From Armatimonadota bacterium (GTDB taxonomy: Bacteria > Armatimonadota > SYMT01): 6,061 nt of DNA. Location of the stretch: the NCBI GenBank assembly GCA_020696885.1, contig JAJFMS010000247.1, forward strand, positions 1 through 6,061. The letters are read 5' to 3'. Under the pieces are notes generated by a model. It saw only the letters and a program-made list of their open reading frames with translations, searched no databases and was not told where the DNA came from. Positions 276-6,061 of this stretch are shown here, one piece after another. How positions within the stretch are numbered: position 1 is the first letter of the stretch; the number at the start of each line of letters is the position of its first letter. Made by a program: the position numbers and the translations under genes.

Positions 276-1529
276 ATGGATGCTGTGAATGCAGGGCGGC
301 GGGTGGTGGTGACCGGTCTCGGTGTGATCACCGCGATCGGTACGGGGGTGGAGCGGCTCCGCTCCGGGCTGTTGGAGATGCGGCCCGGCGTCCGCGAGGT
401 CACCCGCTTCGACGCCAGCGGGTTCAAATGCCGCGTGGCCGGCGAGATCCCGGACTTCCGGCCCGAGGAGTTTCTGGACAAGAAGCAGGTCCGCCGCCTG
501 GACCGCTACTCCCAGCTCTCCATCAGCGCCGCCCGCCTGGCGCTGGAGGATGCCGCCCTGGACCCGACGAGCATCGACCAGGAGCGCGCCGGCGTCTGCA
601 TCGGCTCCGCCCTCGGTGGTGTGAGCTTCGGGGAACAGAACTACGAGGCCTACTCGCGCGGGGGCTGGAAGGCGGTGCACCCGATGCTGGCGCTTTCCGT
701 GTTCGTGGGGGCGGGGTCGTGCAACGTCGCCATCGAGTGCGGCTTCACCGGCCCCTCCACGGCCAACGGAGATAGCTGCAGCGCGGGCGCCATCGCCATC
801 GCCAACGCGCTCCGGTTCATCCAGACCGGCCAGGCGGACCGGATGCTGGCGGGAGGCGTGGAGTCGCCGCTGTCGACCGTTTGCTTCGGAGCCTTCGACA
901 TCATCTCCGCGATGAGCAAGAACATCGATCCCCCGGAGCGTGCCTGCCGCCCGTTCGACCGCACGCGGGACGGGTTCGTGATGGGGGAGGGGGCTGCGAT
1001 CCTGATGCTCGAAGCCGAAGAGGCGGCCCTCGCCCGCGGCGCGCGCATCTACGCCGAGCTGGCCGGCGCCGCCATCACCAACGACGCCTACCACATGACC
1101 GCGCCCCGGCCGGATGGGAAGAGCGCCCTTCGGTGCATGCAGACCGCCTTGCGAGACGCCGGCGTCACCCCGGAGCAGGTAGACACGGTAAACGCCCACG
1201 CCTCCGGCACTCCGTTGAACGACAAGACGGAGACGATGGCCCTCAAACAGCTCCTCGGGGAGCGCGCCTACTCGATCCCGGTGAGCGGTACCAAGAGCCT
1301 GTACGGTCACCCGCTCGGCGCCAGCGGCGCCATCGAAGCGGCGATTAGCTGCCTCACCGTGAGCGAAGGGCTCATCCCCGGCACCGCCAACCTCCACGAG
1401 CCGGACCCCGACTGCGACCTGGACTACGTGGCGGACGGCCCGCGGCAGCAGGCGGTACAGACGCTGCTCTCCAACAGCTTCGGCTTCGGCGGGATCAACG
1501 CCGCACTGGTCTTCCGCGCCTGGCGGTAG
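276..1529 (+). CDS. Beta-ketoacyl-ACP synthase, FabF (KAS II)-like / type II PKS KS-like
   Basis: A thiolase-fold condensing enzyme of 417 residues, the usual FabF length. It would catalyse decarboxylative Claisen condensation of malonyl-ACP onto an acyl thioester in the cytosol. Visible landmarks are the N-terminal RRVVVTGLGVIT strand, the nucleophile Cys168 in GDSCSAGAIAI, His308 in NAHASGTPLNDKTE, Lys340 and His345 in GTKSLYGHPLGASGA, and the C-terminal NSFGFGGIN gate motif. The triad is intact, so it is not a chain-length-factor partner, which lacks the cysteine. The ATG at 276 was chosen over an in-frame ATG at 138 because homology begins at residue 8, GAGG at 265-268 is well spaced, and the longer form would overlap the SRPBCC gene. 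The SGT-x-x-ND-x-x-ET and DP-x-CDLDYV stretches also recall type II polyketide KS-alpha enzymes, so primary fatty-acid synthesis is not assured. Confidence 0.93.
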   Translation: MDAVNAGRRVVVTGLGVITAIGTGVERLRSGLLEMRPGVREVTRFDASGFKCRVAGEIPDFRPEEFLDKKQVRRLDRYSQLSISAARLALEDAALDPTSIDQERAGVCIGSALGGVSFGEQNYEAYSRGGWKAVHPMLALSVFVGAGSCNVAIECGFTGPSTANGDSCSAGAIAIANALRFIQTGQADRMLAGGVESPLSTVCFGAFDIISAMSKNIDPPERACRPFDRTRDGFVMGEGAAILMLEAEEAALARGARIYAELAGAAITNDAYHMTAPRPDGKSALRCMQTALRDAGVTPEQVDTVNAHASGTPLNDKTETMALKQLLGERAYSIPVSGTKSLYGHPLGASGAIEAAISCLTVSEGLIPGTANLHEPDPDCDLDYVADGPRQQAVQTLLSNSFGFGGINAALVFRAWR

Positions 1530-1586: not shown

Positions 1587-2223
1587 TCAGGCTTCCGGCG
1601 CGCCGCGCTCGCGGGGGAGGTCCGCGACCTGGAGAAATCCCGCGCGGGTGGCGTAGAACAGCGCCGGCCTTCCGGCGTACTCCGCCGCCATGTCGGCCCC
1701 GCAGTGGAGCAGCGCGCGCACCAACTCCACGTCCTCGCGGTGTCCGCTGTTCCCGGTGCACGAGATCCAGATCCAGCGGCCGGGCACGCGGTTCACGTCC
1801 GCCCCGTGCGACAGCAGCTTCCCGGCGATTCCCGGATGGCGCACCCACGGGCCGGGACCTACCGCTCCGGCGGTCGCGCCATGCGCCAGCAGGAGGTCCA
1901 CCAGCGCCTCATCGCCGCGGTTGGCGGCGGCTCCTACCAGGCGGGAGCTGTTGGGACCACGTATCGTCAAAGTAGCCGGGATCGCCGCCGAGCCAGGCCT
2001 CGAAGAACCGCTTCTGCTTCTCGCGCTCGTGGGTGAGGTCTCGCACGAACGCCGGCCGGAGCAGCCGGTCGCGCTCGATGCGGTCGTACAACCCGTCCAC
2101 AACCAGAGCTACCGCCTCCCGCCCACCGAGCAGGTCGAACGTCCCCGGCGGAGGAGTTAGCGGCGCCTCGCTCGTGCCGAAAACGCCGCGGTGTTCAAGC
2201 CTGGGCTGCACCGGCAATAACAT
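1587..2223 (-). pseudogene. Broken truncated-globin / ankyrin-repeat gene (frameshift and probable internal deletion)
   Basis: Two adjacent minus-strand frames read as one damaged gene. The first (about 2139 down to 1957) has TFDLLGG, LYDRIERD, LLRPAFVRDL and KRFFEAWLGGDPGYFDDTW, matching the front half of a group II-like truncated haemoglobin. The rear half with the heme-ligating His-F8 is absent. The second frame (about 1952 down to the TGA at 1587-1589) has ankyrin-like units: EALVDLLLAHGAT, GKLLSHGADVNR, ELVRALLHCGADM, then GFLQVADLPRERGAPEA. Going from globin to ankyrin needs a one-base step in frame, and about 60 globin residues are missing, so a deletion not divisible by three is the simplest cause. 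The globin frame stops soon after the junction. The start is uncertain: an ATG lies at 2221-2223 with no good ribosome binding site. It could be two neighbouring genes rather than one fusion. Confidence 0.7.
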
Positions 2224-2255
2224 GGATCCGTGCGTCACAGTTGTGATGAGCGGCG

Positions 2256-2274
2256 TCGGGCTGCTAGAGCCCGA
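2256..2274. repeat. 7-bp stem hairpin
   Basis: TCGGGCT (2256-2262) pairs exactly with AGCCCGA (2268-2274) around the loop GCTAG. It is not followed by a T-run in either direction, so termination is unproven. It lies just upstream of the possible start of the globin remnant, on its coding strand. Confidence 0.45.
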
Positions 2275-2341
2275 GGCCCGCCCCGGGCTGAAGCCACGAG
2301 GGAGGAAATCCGTTCCCGTCCCTTGGTCCACTAACGCCAGT

Positions 2342-2770: not shown

Positions 2771-3427
2771 TCACTCGACCGTCAGTTGAAGGAACTCGCG
2801 CCAGAGAACGGCATTGGCGCCGTGCGGGTCAAGGAACGAGGTCGGGCCGGTGATGAAAGGCAGCATCTGCCAGTCTTCCGCCCCCGGGCAGCCAAGCAGC
2901 GACCAGCGGTCGATGAAGTCCTCGAAATCCGCGCCCAGTTGGTAGCCGTGCCCCTCCCCGCCGTCGTGGCTCAAGTAGACCACTGGAGCCGAGGTCGCGA
3001 GGACATCCAGGGCGAGGACGTCGCCGTTGTCCACCTGGAGGAACCCGAGCTTATGATGCCACACGCGATTGTAGGCGTCTTCCGGATCGGCAAAACACGA
3101 GTCGATCCACTCCCGTCGCCCGCCATCCACGTTGGTTAGCTGGGACAGGCTCCACCGGCACTCCCCGCAGAAGTTGTCGCCAAAAGCCGGCGGGCGAGGG
3201 AGCTCCTCCGGTAAGAACCAGCGGAACTCCACCTCTGCGGAGAAATCGGTCAGCACCCGGCGGAAGGAGGCAGGAAGCCGCTGTCCCAGCTCGCTCTCCA
3301 CCGTCTCGACTTCCGCCTCGGTCGCCGGTGGAGCGATTCGAAGCTCCCGTGCGTCGCCGCCCAGGCGTTGGCACGCCGCCAGCATCGCCTCCCACCGCCT
3401 CACCCACCGATCATATGAAGCCTTCAC
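2771..3427 (-). CDS. SMI1/KNR4 (SUKH) domain protein
   Basis: A 218-residue soluble protein with no signal peptide. After a helical N-terminus (MKASYDRWVRRWEAMLAACQ), the SUKH signature begins at residues 31-60: IAPPATEAEVETVESELGQRLPASFRRVL, the usual 'P-A-T-x-x-E-I-x-x-x-E-x-x-L-G-x-x-L-P' opening. It closes with GDVLALDV (135-142), PVVYLSHDG (148-156) and ADFEDFIDRW (166-175), followed by a 43-residue tail with EDWQMLPF and LWREFLQL. The start is GTG at 3425-3427, backed by GGAGGG (3435-3440 on the minus strand) seven bases upstream. SUKH proteins are best known as immunity proteins that bind and neutralise secreted nuclease toxins, but many stand alone with unknown partners. No toxin gene is visible here. 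The divergent neighbour is the blaI-like gene, 299 bp away. Confidence 0.85.
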   Translation of the reverse strand: MKASYDRWVRRWEAMLAACQRLGGDARELRIAPPATEAEVETVESELGQRLPASFRRVLTDFSAEVEFRWFLPEELPRPPAFGDNFCGECRWSLSQLTNVDGGRREWIDSCFADPEDAYNRVWHHKLGFLQVDNGDVLALDVLATSAPVVYLSHDGGEGHGYQLGADFEDFIDRWSLLGCPGAEDWQMLPFITGPTSFLDPHGANAVLWREFLQLTVE

Positions 3428-3649: not shown

Positions 3650-3665
3650 TGTTAACTTTTTAGCG
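3650..3665. promoter_or_regulatory. Candidate distal BlaI-type operator (imperfect dyad)
   Basis: TGTTAA (3650-3655), four bases, then TTAGCG (3660-3665). It matches the downstream dyad with the same four-base spacer: the left half is perfect and the right half agrees at four of six positions. It lies upstream of the -35 box, and its centre is 42 bp from the downstream dyad, about four helical turns, so both would face the same side of the DNA. Confidence 0.5.
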
Positions 3666-3672
3666 CCAGAGG

Positions 3673-3700
3673 TTGACGCAACGGAGAATCGTGTTAATAT
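3673..3700 (+). promoter_or_regulatory. Predicted sigma-70-type promoter of the repressor/peptidase operon
   Basis: A -35 box TTGACG (3673-3678; five of six to TTGACA) is followed after 16 bases by TAATAT (3695-3700; four of six to TATAAT). Transcription would begin near 3707, leaving a leader of only about 20 bases before the GTG start. The -10 lies inside the operator dyad, so repressor binding would block RNA polymerase directly. Confidence 0.55.
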
Positions 3701-3707
3701 TTTAACA
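3692..3707. promoter_or_regulatory. Candidate BlaI-type operator (perfect dyad)
   Basis: TGTTAATATTTTAACA has perfect 6-bp arms, TGTTAA and TTAACA, around a four-base spacer. It covers the predicted -10 box and ends 19 bp before the repressor start codon, the expected place for an autoregulated BlaI/MecI operator. The sequence differs from the staphylococcal TACA/TGTA-type operator, so assignment to this repressor rests on position and symmetry. Confidence 0.65.
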
Positions 3708-3716
3708 TCAAGCCGA

Positions 3717-3738
3717 TGGATTACCTGTGGACTACCTG
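3717..3738 (+). repeat. 11-bp tandem duplication at the repressor start
   Basis: TGGATTACCTG (3717-3727) is followed directly by TGGACTACCTG (3728-3738), ten of eleven identical. The ATG at 3716 opens only a seven-codon frame (MDYLWTT, stop at 3737-3739). The GTG at 3727, formed across the repeat junction, re-creates the same N-terminus (DYLS) in the repressor frame. Confidence 0.75.
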
Positions 3739-4101
3739 AGCAAGCGCGAACAACAGATCATGGACCTCGTCTATCAGCGGGGTGAGGCGACGGCGGCAGA
3801 GGTGGTGGAGGCCTTACCGGAGGCACTCTCCAACTCCGCGGTGCGCACGTTCCTGCGGATCCTGGAGCGCAAGGGCCACCTCCGGCACGAGGTACGAGAG
3901 GGCCGGTATGTCTACCTGCCCACCCGGCCCCGGCAGTCTGCAGCCCGCGCGGCGCTGTCGCAGCTCCTCCATGTCTTCTTCGACGGTTCGGTGGAGCAGG
4001 TCATGGCTACGCTTCTCTCCGAGAAGGAGGGCGAGGTGTCGGCAGCCGAGCTGGAGCGCTTGGAGCGGATGATCCAGCAGGCAAAACAGGAGGGTCGGTA
4101 G
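3727..4101 (+). CDS. BlaI/MecI/CopY-family transcriptional repressor
   Basis: A 124-residue cytosolic regulator, the normal family length. Residues 1-65 form the winged helix: LSKREQQIMDLVYQRGEATAAEVVEALP (first two helices), SNSAVRTFLRILERKGHL (recognition helix), then a wing ending GRYVYLP. Residues 70-124 are the helical dimerisation arm (SAARAALSQLLHVFFDGSVEQVMATLL, then a charged final helix). Such repressors bind operator dyads as dimers and are lost from DNA after the partner M56 sensor is activated and they are cleaved. The GTG start is the only one in this frame consistent with the family N-terminus (DYLSKRE). No good Shine-Dalgarno precedes it, and the leader is very short. The M56 gene follows after 46 bp, the classical blaI-blaR1 order. 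The regulated function need not be beta-lactam resistance; no beta-lactamase is visible. Confidence 0.92.
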   Translation: MDYLSKREQQIMDLVYQRGEATAAEVVEALPEALSNSAVRTFLRILERKGHLRHEVREGRYVYLPTRPRQSAARAALSQLLHVFFDGSVEQVMATLLSEKEGEVSAAELERLERMIQQAKQEGR

Positions 4102-4134
4102 CCGCTCGCGTAGGCGAGGGCTGCGGTCGATGCC

Positions 4135-4141
4135 GGAGGAG
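4135..4141 (+). promoter_or_regulatory. Ribosome binding site of the M56 gene
   Basis: GGAGGAG lies six bases before the ATG at 4148. It favours that start over the in-frame ATG at 4130, whose best upstream match is GAGGG at 4116-4120. Confidence 0.6.
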
Positions 4142-4147
4142 CGGACG

Positions 4148-6061
4148 ATGGGGGACGATACCCGCGCGCTGATGGTTTTAGGCGAGCTCGCTGCTCGGAG
4201 CGTGGCGCTGGTGGTGGCGGCCGGGGTGGTGAGCGCACTCCTGCGCCGCACTCCGGCCGCCTACCGGTGCCAGCTCTGGCAGATGACCCTGGCACTGCTG
4301 TTGCTCCTCCCTGCCACCTACGCGGCGCTCCCCCGGCTCCGCGTGCCGGTGCTCCCGCCCGTCGCGTCACCCGTCCCCGGAGGTACTGCGGCCGCGTCGG
4401 ACGCCGCGCGTAGTGCGCCTCGCTCAGGGCTGGACGCTGCGCGGACTTCCGGTCCGGTTCGACCGCCGCAGCGGGCGGAGCCGTTTCCTCCCGGAACCCG
4501 ATTCCTCTCCAGGCTTCCAGCAGGGTTCCACGGGCTCCCTGGCGGGATCCTCGCAATCTGGGCGCTCGGCACGGCGCTTGGGCTGGGGTCTCTTGTCACC
4601 GGGCTCCTCCGGGCTCAAGCCCTTCTGCGGTCAATGTCGGAAGTGGACGATGAGGCCCTGCTCCGGGTACTCGCAAGCGCCCGAAGCTCGATGGTGTCGG
4701 GGAGGTGCGTGCGCCTGGTGATGCCCGGCGCGGAGGGCGGGTTCGCGACTCCAATGACGACCGGCCTGCGCCGCCCCACGATTCTCTTGCCCCATGCTGC
4801 GAAGGAATGGAGCGAAGAGCGGGTCCGAGCCGTCCTCCTCCACGAACTCGCCCACGTGGAGCGCCGGGACTGGCCCTGGTACCTCACGGCCCGCTTGGCC
4901 TGCGCCCTCTACTGGTGGAACCCGCTGGTCTGGCTGGCGGCGGAGCGGATGCGAGCCGAGGCCGAAGGAGCCTGTGATGACCAGGTGCTCGCGGCGGGGA
5001 TGCCCGCGTCGAACTACGCCGCGCACCTGATGGCGCTGGCCCCCGCGGCTCGCCGGCAGGCCGTGCCCACCACGTGGGTGGGGATGGCGCGTGAGTCTGG
5101 CATCGCCATTCGCATCGAAGCGATCCTCGGCGAGCGGGTGCCCCGCGGTCCGGTGCGGGCGCGGTGGGCAGCCGCCATCGTTGCTGGTGCCGGGCTGGTA
5201 CTGCTGCCGGTGAGCAGCATCGCCCTGGCACCGCGAGGATTCACTCCGATGGTAGCCCGGGAGGTGGCCTCTCCGCAGACACCGGCATCCCGGGCTGTCG
5301 TTGCGGCCCCCGCTCAGTCCAGTCCGGTAGCAACCACCGCACCCGCAGCACCAGTCATGCCGCCCATCGCAGCCGGGCCGCGCGAAGACGCGGCGGGCCG
5401 GCTTGCGGAGGTGCGGATGGAGCCGCCCCCCATGCCGTCTGCCCTGGCTCCCGTGCTTCCCCCGGCCCTCGCAGCGCCTCCCGCGGCGCCGGTTACCGGC
5501 CGGATCGTGGTTGGCGGCTTTGTCCAGGCGGAAGGGTTCAAGATTTTCGCGCTGGATCCGGCTACGGGGAAGCTGGAGGTCCTGGTGCGGCACGGCGGCG
5601 AGCGTGTCCGGCAGGCTCCCGACCGGCGCACGCTTGCCTACGAGCGGGAGACGGACGGCGAGGCGCCAGCGTTGCTCGTGGGCGAGGTCGGCAACGACAA
5701 GCCGCGCACTGCCCAGACCTTCGTGGATTCCTGGATCTCGCCGGATAGCCGATACCCGGTCTGGTCGCCGGATGGGCAGAGCTTCCTCTGCAGCTTCGCA
5801 GAACGGAACACGGATTTCTTGCTCCGAACGTACCGCTTCTCCCGCGATGGAACCGGGAAGACGCTCCTGCCGCTCCCGGATCGAGACTGGGTGTCGGACT
5901 GGTCGCCCAATGGCGAGTGGCTGCTTACGGTATCCGGCAGGGGCAACGTGGGTCCGCATATCTACCTCATGGGGACAGACGGTTCCCAGGCACGACGCCT
6001 GTCCGAAGAGGACGGCGACTATCACTGGGCGCCGCGGTTCTCGCCGGATGGGAAGCGCGTG
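4148..6061 (+). CDS. BlaR1-like M56 metallopeptidase with TolB/WD40-like propeller, 3' partial
   Basis: One frame stays open from the ATG at 4148 to the window end (638 codons, no stop). Membrane segments are predicted near residues 14-32, 45-62, 134-155 and 340-360. The M56 zinc site is LLHELAHVERRDW (His232, Glu233, His236), followed by WWNPLVW and AEAEGACDDQVL, where Glu273 is the expected third ligand. Residues about 361-450 are a Pro/Ala-rich linker, likely extracytoplasmic. From about 451 a TolB-like beta-propeller begins, with blades marked WSPDG (539), WSPNG (585) and FSPDG (631) at exact 46-residue steps and IYLMGTDGSQARRLS before the last. Classical BlaR1 has a penicillin-binding sensor at this place. 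By analogy, it would sense a signal outside the membrane and trigger loss of the upstream repressor. An alternative start is the in-frame ATG at 4130. The propeller continues beyond the window. Confidence 0.9.
   Translation, partial: MGDDTRALMVLGELAARSVALVVAAGVVSALLRRTPAAYRCQLWQMTLALLLLLPATYAALPRLRVPVLPPVASPVPGGTAAASDAARSAPRSGLDAARTSGPVRPPQRAEPFPPGTRFLSRLPAGFHGLPGGILAIWALGTALGLGSLVTGLLRAQALLRSMSEVDDEALLRVLASARSSMVSGRCVRLVMPGAEGGFATPMTTGLRRPTILLPHAAKEWSEERVRAVLLHELAHVERRDWPWYLTARLACALYWWNPLVWLAAERMRAEAEGACDDQVLAAGMPASNYAAHLMALAPAARRQAVPTTWVGMARESGIAIRIEAILGERVPRGPVRARWAAAIVAGAGLVLLPVSSIALAPRGFTPMVAREVASPQTPASRAVVAAPAQSSPVATTAPAAPVMPPIAAGPREDAAGRLAEVRMEPPPMPSALAPVLPPALAAPPAAPVTGRIVVGGFVQAEGFKIFALDPATGKLEVLVRHGGERVRQAPDRRTLAYERETDGEAPALLVGEVGNDKPRTAQTFVDSWISPDSRYPVWSPDGQSFLCSFAERNTDFLLRTYRFSRDGTGKTLLPLPDRDWVSDWSPNGEWLLTVSGRGNVGPHIYLMGTDGSQARRLSEEDGDYHWAPRFSPDGKRV

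Follow-up and report, generated by a model that had tools for sequence, protein, structure and literature searches.

The window analysed here is a stretch of 6,061 nucleotides from an Armatimonadota bacterium (contig JAJFMS010000247.1), in which a gene for a BlaI-family repressor is followed directly by one for an M56 metalloprotease with a predicted TolB-like propeller as its probable C-terminal ectodomain (4148..6061, forward strand, clipped by the window end). With a probability of roughly 0.7, the two genes make up a transmembrane derepression switch that works like BlaI/BlaR1 but has a non-beta-lactam sensor, wherein the repressor-cutting wiring is probably aimed at another extracellular signal. 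A preliminary description of the second gene, as a BlaR1-type sensor whose penicillin-binding domain has given way to a propeller, is confirmed as an observation, and its interpretation as a whole is partly supported.

The reading frame contains no stop codon from 4130/4148 through 6061, and translation probably starts at the ATG at 4148, with GGAGGA ahead of it at 4135-4140. A Pfam scan of the encoded protein recovers M56 (E 3.7e-30) and PD40 (E 3.1e-7), both clearing the curated cut-off, and nothing else: no penicillin-binding domain follows the core, and the TolB N-terminal domain (presumably PF04052) is likewise not among the matches. The NCBIfam BlaR1 model scores 80.9, far below its cut-off of 400. 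Together with motif and hydropathy scans, the open frame and the Pfam matches bear out the M56 core, membrane segments, Pro/Ala linker and WSPDG-type blades described earlier. The continuation past 6061 is known as a database protein, P0002 (~740 aa), rather than as DNA; it comprises two members on two contigs, which have the same M56-propeller fusion, and no transpeptidase-like domain is found among its listed Pfam domains. Its match to the window protein begins at residue 203 and shows one difference in 436 residues, and its 102 extra residues add a further WSPDG-type motif at 682, so that the gene probably does not break off just after 6061 through a stop, a frameshift or a want of further blades. 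The C-terminus of P0002 appears to be complete, since its DWR end is also found in its propeller kin.

Inspection of the protease core identifies the zinc-site motifs HELAH (residues 232-236) and EGACD (273-277), encoded at 4841..4978. Residues H232, E233, H236, E273 and D277 are invariant in all 14 rows of the M56 alignment A3, the window's row included, and the HExxH motif and third ligand E of the BlaR1/MecR1 core are present. Hydropathy and predicted helices place four membrane segments ahead of the ectodomain, as in BlaR1/MecR1: segments 1 and 2 (~residues 14-32 and 43-61; 4187..4330), segment 3 (~132-150; 4541..4597) and segment 4 (~342-360; 5171..5227). An M56 profile search retrieves Staphylococcus aureus BlaR1 (8exs, E 5.7e-5; 8exp, E 1.7e-4). 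The structure model of the window protein is confident over ~11-60 and 131-300 and poor over the propeller, because its alignment held few propellers; its top four PDB matches are BlaR1 chains (E-values 7.1e-6 to 4.8e-5), although the TM-scores of these matches are 0.26-0.31 and the rmsd is near 16. According to PMC9834060, the BlaR1 active site has contributions from Tyr261, Asp246 and Arg294 of the swapped partner, and BlaR1 has an Nout/Cout orientation. BlaR1 Asp246, Tyr261 and Arg294 align to D277, Y290 and R322 of the window protein, all three invariant in A3. The hydrophobic segments and predicted helices make it probable that the propeller lies outside the cytoplasm, as had been proposed; the loop charges are mixed, positive charge being found both in the short loop 33-42 and in the predicted outer loop 62-131.

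Downstream of the fourth segment lies a Pro/Ala-rich linker (5228..5497; residues 361-455 contain 21 P and 24 A), followed by the first part of the propeller (5498..6061; Pfam and structure prediction), the remainder of which is found in P0002. WSPDG-type motifs occur at residues 539, 585, 631 and, in P0002, 682, i.e., at steps of 46, 46 and 51, and the search pattern also picks up FSRDG at 564. Where the preliminary description looked for six to eight closed blades, the model that includes the P0002 continuation predicts a closed, TolB-like propeller of six, and this fold, with Pfam seeing M56 and PD40 only, would occupy the place of the BlaR1 penicillin-binding domain. An envelope protein, a lipoprotein or peptidoglycan as the signal would have to be read from the TolB-like fold alone, and the fold by itself gives no function.

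The repressor gene (3727..4101, forward strand; 124 aa, GTG start; PF03965, E 1.1e-25) stands directly upstream of the M56 gene, as is the case for BlaR1/MecR1. Its match to the Penicillinase_R family and the palindromic operator-like sites at its own promoter are as expected for BlaI/MecI repressors, and binding to these sites is predicted. The protein is 63% identical to the BlaI of locus L002 and 68% to that of L174. As a single sequence it gave no match in the PDB at E 0.01, but an 11-row BlaI profile did find the PDB BlaI/MecI structures. A profile alignment with S. aureus BlaI/MecI puts the scissile-bond position at T95|L96; BlaI itself is cleaved between Asn101 and Phe102 according to PMC9834060. 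Of the earlier interpretation, the BlaR1-type core with its neighbouring BlaI and a conserved repressor circuit are supported, and cleavage of the repressor is predicted by analogy with BlaR1.

Two putative operators precede blaI on the forward strand: O1 (TGTTAACTTTTTAGCG; 3650..3665), with two mismatches to TGTTAANNNNTTAACA, and O2 (TGTTAATATTTTAACA; 3692..3707), a perfect 6+4+6 dyad. A sigma-70-like promoter (TTGACG, 16 nt, TAATAT; 3673..3700) has its second hexamer within O2, and the promoter search returned two overlapping matches versus a shuffle mean of 0.0. The operator pattern, which was derived from the window sequence itself, matches there twice (0.10 matches on average after shuffling, and two in no shuffle of 200). 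The 16-mer of O2 recurs identically before the blaI gene of L002, an Armatimonadota metagenome-assembled genome (MAG), and second sites ~40-45 nt before O2 are seen in several related blaI promoters. In a survey of 53 BlaI upstream regions, palindromes with arms of 6 nt around a spacer of 4 nt were the most enriched (15/53 versus a shuffle mean of 2.7 and maximum of 6), other spacers such as 6 (11/53) and 9 (10/53) also being above shuffles. Among L169-L185, loci fetched later by their M56 and hence independent of that survey, the exact degenerate pattern occurs in 6 of 17, with L174 carrying two exact sites 44 nt apart. The signal is a feature of the near BlaI relatives (n=28, window excluded): allowing up to one mismatch, a site is present in 20 of them (shuffle mean 0.1) and a pair of sites spaced 38-48 nt in 10 (shuffle mean 0.01, maximum 1), and by hand count 21 have TTGAC 19-21 nt ahead of a listed site. 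Neither single nor paired sites were found before the distant BlaI genes (0/41 for each). Split by time of retrieval, the earlier loci have a site in 11 of 12 cases and the later loci in 9 of 16 scored; the later loci are the fair test, because L135 of the earlier set came via the pattern and several others had shaped it. At L002, a VanW-like gene (3744-4820) whose product also weakly matches a peptidoglycan-binding domain is divergent from blaI, and the common intergenic region carries both operator sites (4883-4942).

Linkage to BlaI extends well beyond the window. When 71 M56 ORFs with a length of 250 residues or more were examined, 52 proved to have a BlaI directly upstream and three lay too close to a contig end (the other 16 are considered below), and a BlaI-family ORF stands upstream on the same strand in 17 of 17 of the loci L169-L185. 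For M56-propeller genes in particular, the preliminary description called for a count of such linkage, and a BlaI neighbour was found in all three cases with readable DNA: the window, L131/L132 of the Planctomycetota sample (PF05569 and PF07676), and L178 of the Armatimonadota sample (M56 and a WD40 propeller). The L131 BlaI belongs to the distant group and its palindromes differ. Overlapping the end of the M56-propeller gene in L132 is an 816-residue ORF (5623-8070, reverse strand) with a weak, below cut-off MAM-domain match, possibly a third operon member.

Exchange of the ectodomain behind a conserved core is common in the family. The M56 core of L002 is 50% identical to that of the window over 132 residues, and its C-terminal part has no credible similarity; neither in L002 nor in L174 does this part match a Pfam family. 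Eight M56 proteins were scanned against Pfam, covering 5 of the 17 loci L169-L185: L122 and L084 have HEAT repeats, L170 has DUF4440, L178 has WD40, and L174, L172, L184 and L087 show M56 alone. A propeller flag on L052 was not confirmed by Pfam. Among 120 relatives listed, three (P0002 included) have PD40 and, by eye count, ~30 have HEAT repeats, with carboxypeptidase-regulatory, TonB, PQQ, PDZ, amidase and thioredoxin domains in others. A three-protein M56-propeller profile listed 41 proteins with M56 and PD40 among 120 matches, which is no frequency, as the query favours such proteins. JGI names show that the M56-PD40 architecture has already been machine-annotated. The earlier suggestion of a little-described class is supported for the literature, in that no title or abstract start among open-access papers was found to describe an M56/BlaR1-like protein with a propeller; it is qualified by sequence collections, where M56-PD40 fusions are numerous.

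The mechanism proposed here builds on what was computed, namely the order of the genes, the conserved palindromes, the motifs of the protease, its hydrophobic segments and the predicted propeller fold; for topology, protease action on BlaI and the signalling chain from ligand to cleavage, it borrows from BlaR1. In the resting state, BlaI dimers would sit on O1 and O2, covering the promoter from which blaI and the M56 gene are transcribed. The protease would span the inner membrane with both ends outside and its zinc site towards the cytosol, the C-terminal propeller being held outside on the flexible Pro/Ala linker. When a partner binds to the propeller (or leaves it), the sensor would shift and the protease site would become free, upon which the protease could cut BlaI near T95|L96 and the promoter would be released.

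The propeller itself has kin with a different output. Of 240 proteins, 19 have a C-terminal DWR. Besides P0002, these are seven proteins that contain sigma-70 domains, one that contains a carboxypeptidase-regulatory domain, and 10 stand-alone versions; we name the whole group the DWR-ending PD40 propeller subfamily. The P0002 propeller has both the near-full-length match and the C-terminal DWR; the window ends before that point. Seventeen DWR kin show mostly one near-full-length match to the window propeller (best stretch, ~77 to 134 bits). By contrast, the propellers of 17 other M56 proteins match it piecemeal in 14 cases and not at all in L131, P0263 and P0272. All seven sigma fusions tested (six DWR-ending ones and P0135) have a hydrophobic segment ahead of the propeller, as do P0123 and P0124, near the N-terminus, among four stand-alone kin tested. 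A reading of the N-termini of Acidobacteriota propeller proteins as CadC-type DNA-binding domains was dropped, their consensus being TPR-like by eye.

A tree of 102 M56 domains, which took every second non-propeller match from the listed relatives and is itself unresolved, needs five changes of the propeller label, two of them forced by starred branches. The window M56 sits on a long unsupported branch, with the M56-propeller protein P0242 as its nearest row (51% identity). Judged by the M56 domain, the window fusion and the P0242 group may be of common descent; nonetheless, a separate origin of the window fusion is likely, because its propeller belongs to a different subfamily. The same tree contains a starred clade of 25 rows, to which P0245, P0248, P0281 and others belong, M56 proteins of ~1300-1560 residues with long propeller regions; long branches meet there. 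The propeller-protein pairs P0060/P0251 and P0309/P0331 have longest contigs of equal length (9443 and 7295, respectively) and are perhaps neighbouring genes.

Several observations weigh against the derepression switch. The BlaR1 autocleavage residue Phe284 aligns to G312, beside M313, and the autocleavage loop is not clearly kept in the window protein. Loop 62-131, predicted to lie outside, carries a net positive charge (9 K+R versus 3 D+E), which is unhelpful for the topology, and the stand-alone kin P0131 and P0132 lack a hydrophobic N-terminal segment at the threshold used, their starts being twin-arginine-like by eye. No BlaI was found upstream of 16 of the 71 M56 ORFs; this is an overcount, as a looser cut-off finds BlaI for L019, L030, L055 and L060, L089 overlaps a BlaI, and L003 is split over frames. 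Further, M56 was seen joined to a DWR-type propeller in the window and P0002 only. Searches of 199, 149, 297, 294, 3, 151, 194 and 3 genomes (partly overlapping samples) gave no second such fusion, a weak negative because few candidates were scored per genome in the large searches, queries differed, and the 199-genome and last 3-genome searches had no positive control; the M56-propeller genes gained were L131 (from the 294-genome search) and L178 (by Pfam). Finally, no target gene past the blaI-M56 operon is visible.

This last point, and the presence of the site at blaI itself in several relatives, would suit an alternative wherein the propeller is cargo, i.e., a membrane-anchored envelope or binding domain dosed by the BlaI loop, with the protease constitutive or self-regulating; the 10 stand-alone versions among the 19 DWR-ending relatives point the same way. 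However, BlaR1 has its sensor at the same position (PMC9834060), and the same propeller group occurs behind sigma factors, where an input role appears likelier, and we regard the cargo role as unlikely. Less likely still is that the propeller gates or feeds substrates to the protease as in prolyl oligopeptidases, with BlaI a mere neighbour: S9-type peptidase propellers are indeed among the Foldseek matches, but the BlaR1 topology has the zinc site towards the cytosol, opposite the ectodomain, and BlaI and its operator accompany the protease at related loci. The fusion could also be an artefact of assembly that joined an M56 gene to a propeller gene unrelated to it. The restricted pairing and the long lone branch of the window M56 might speak for such a chimera, but it is highly improbable, given that P0002 has the same fusion in two members on two contigs, with one differing residue and a family-like end, and that other M56-propeller fusions recur.

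As regards possible targets of the repressor, TGYTARNNNNYTARCA was sought in 12 genomes, with 0-3 sites in 11 of them and 28 in G218, while a reversed control pattern gave 1-15 sites per genome (15 in G218); counts exceed the control in G218 and G462 (3 versus 2) only. Six sites of the 11 other genomes lie at blaI (L134, L135, L137, L138, L139 and L147); for the remaining sites, the stretch that was fetched shows no BlaI. In G218, of the Acidobacteriota sample (e.g., L149-L168), the 28 sites are scattered TGCTAA-N4-TTAGCA-type palindromes, mostly inside mechanical ORFs: by hand count, 22 sites in 20 stretches comprise 17 within such ORFs and five between, two of the five before blaI in L160. 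These were not adopted as a regulon. Three stretches of the Acidobacteriota sample have operator-like palindromes and no BlaI in the fetched stretch, and these are possible BlaI targets: a tandem pair ~180 nt upstream of an ABC ATPase gene (L140, 795-829), a palindrome 18 nt before a MacB-type permease ORF (L141, 1501-1516), and another where an ORF for a hydrolase of the beta-lactamase fold (PF00144) begins (L148, 1501-1516).

Elsewhere in the window, an SMI1/KNR4 (SUKH) family protein is encoded at 2774-3427 (reverse strand), upstream of the blaI operon. At 1587-2331 (reverse strand), an ankyrin-repeat ORF (1590-2102) is overlapped by an ORF in another frame (1909-2331), truncated-globin-like by eye, and the two are perhaps one frameshifted gene. 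A FabF-like beta-ketoacyl synthase (276-1529, forward strand) is 71% identical to that of one Armatimonadota genome and at most 58% to those of the rest of 61. The closest BlaI (68%, L174) comes from the sample of this phylum too, and within this comparison, which covered the one phylum, both matches are suggestive as to where the window originates. None of the seven window ORFs scanned with Pfam is a beta-lactamase or penicillin-binding protein.

BlaI/BlaR1 is mainly known as a beta-lactam resistance switch. The same switch logic would here operate in environmental bacteria with a propeller ectodomain, its operator-promoter layout being conserved across phyla, and this suggests that derepression by proteolysis is a broader system, of which the sensing of antibiotics is one specialised application. 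We lean slightly towards viewing this system as a modular platform, in which a single BlaI subfamily, its operator-promoter layout fixed, and a single M56 protease are shared across Armatimonadota, Acidobacteriota and Verrucomicrobiota, while ectodomains are swapped, the same propeller being also mounted on membrane-bound sigma factors; the ectodomain would then set the signal, mostly a non-beta-lactam one. The operator sequence, the scissile bond and the exchangeable ectodomain offer concrete predictions for a laboratory host.

Among known systems, BlaR1/MecR1-BlaI/MecI of S. aureus and Bacillus licheniformis share the M56 gluzincin core, four membrane segments, C-terminal ectodomain, neighbouring BlaI repressor and promoter palindromes, but have a penicillin-binding domain where the window protein has its propeller. 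Two Clostridium thermocellum BlaI regulators with small self-controlling regulons and two pairs of inverted repeats, as described in PMC8457756, follow the same logic with a different operator sequence. TolB of the Tol-Pal system resembles the predicted propeller in its six blades; however, it is only 17-18% identical to it, TIGR02800 scores 42 bits versus a cut-off of 343, and the window protein is a membrane-anchored fusion. ECF-type sigma factors with C-terminal propellers (P0126-P0130, P0136 and P0179) belong to the same DWR subfamily, with 28-36% identity over 92-100% of the query region, but their output is a sigma factor and not a protease; two reviews note that ECF57 factors have a C-terminal extension with WD40-like repeats (PMC8999054) and that there are ECF sigma factors with WD40 domains in Planctomycetes (PMC8567305). 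M56-PD40 proteins such as P0005, P0060, P0311 and L131 have the same order of M56 and then propeller, but propellers that match that of the window in pieces or not at all. Also related are the uncharacterised M56-BlaI pairs of L002 (Armatimonadota MAG), L174 and L178 (sample of the same phylum), and L087 and L122 (Acidobacteriota sample), which have a near BlaI relative, the same operator type and the M56 core, and differ in an ectodomain that matches no Pfam family in L002, L174 and L087, comprises HEAT repeats in L122, and is a WD40 propeller in L178.
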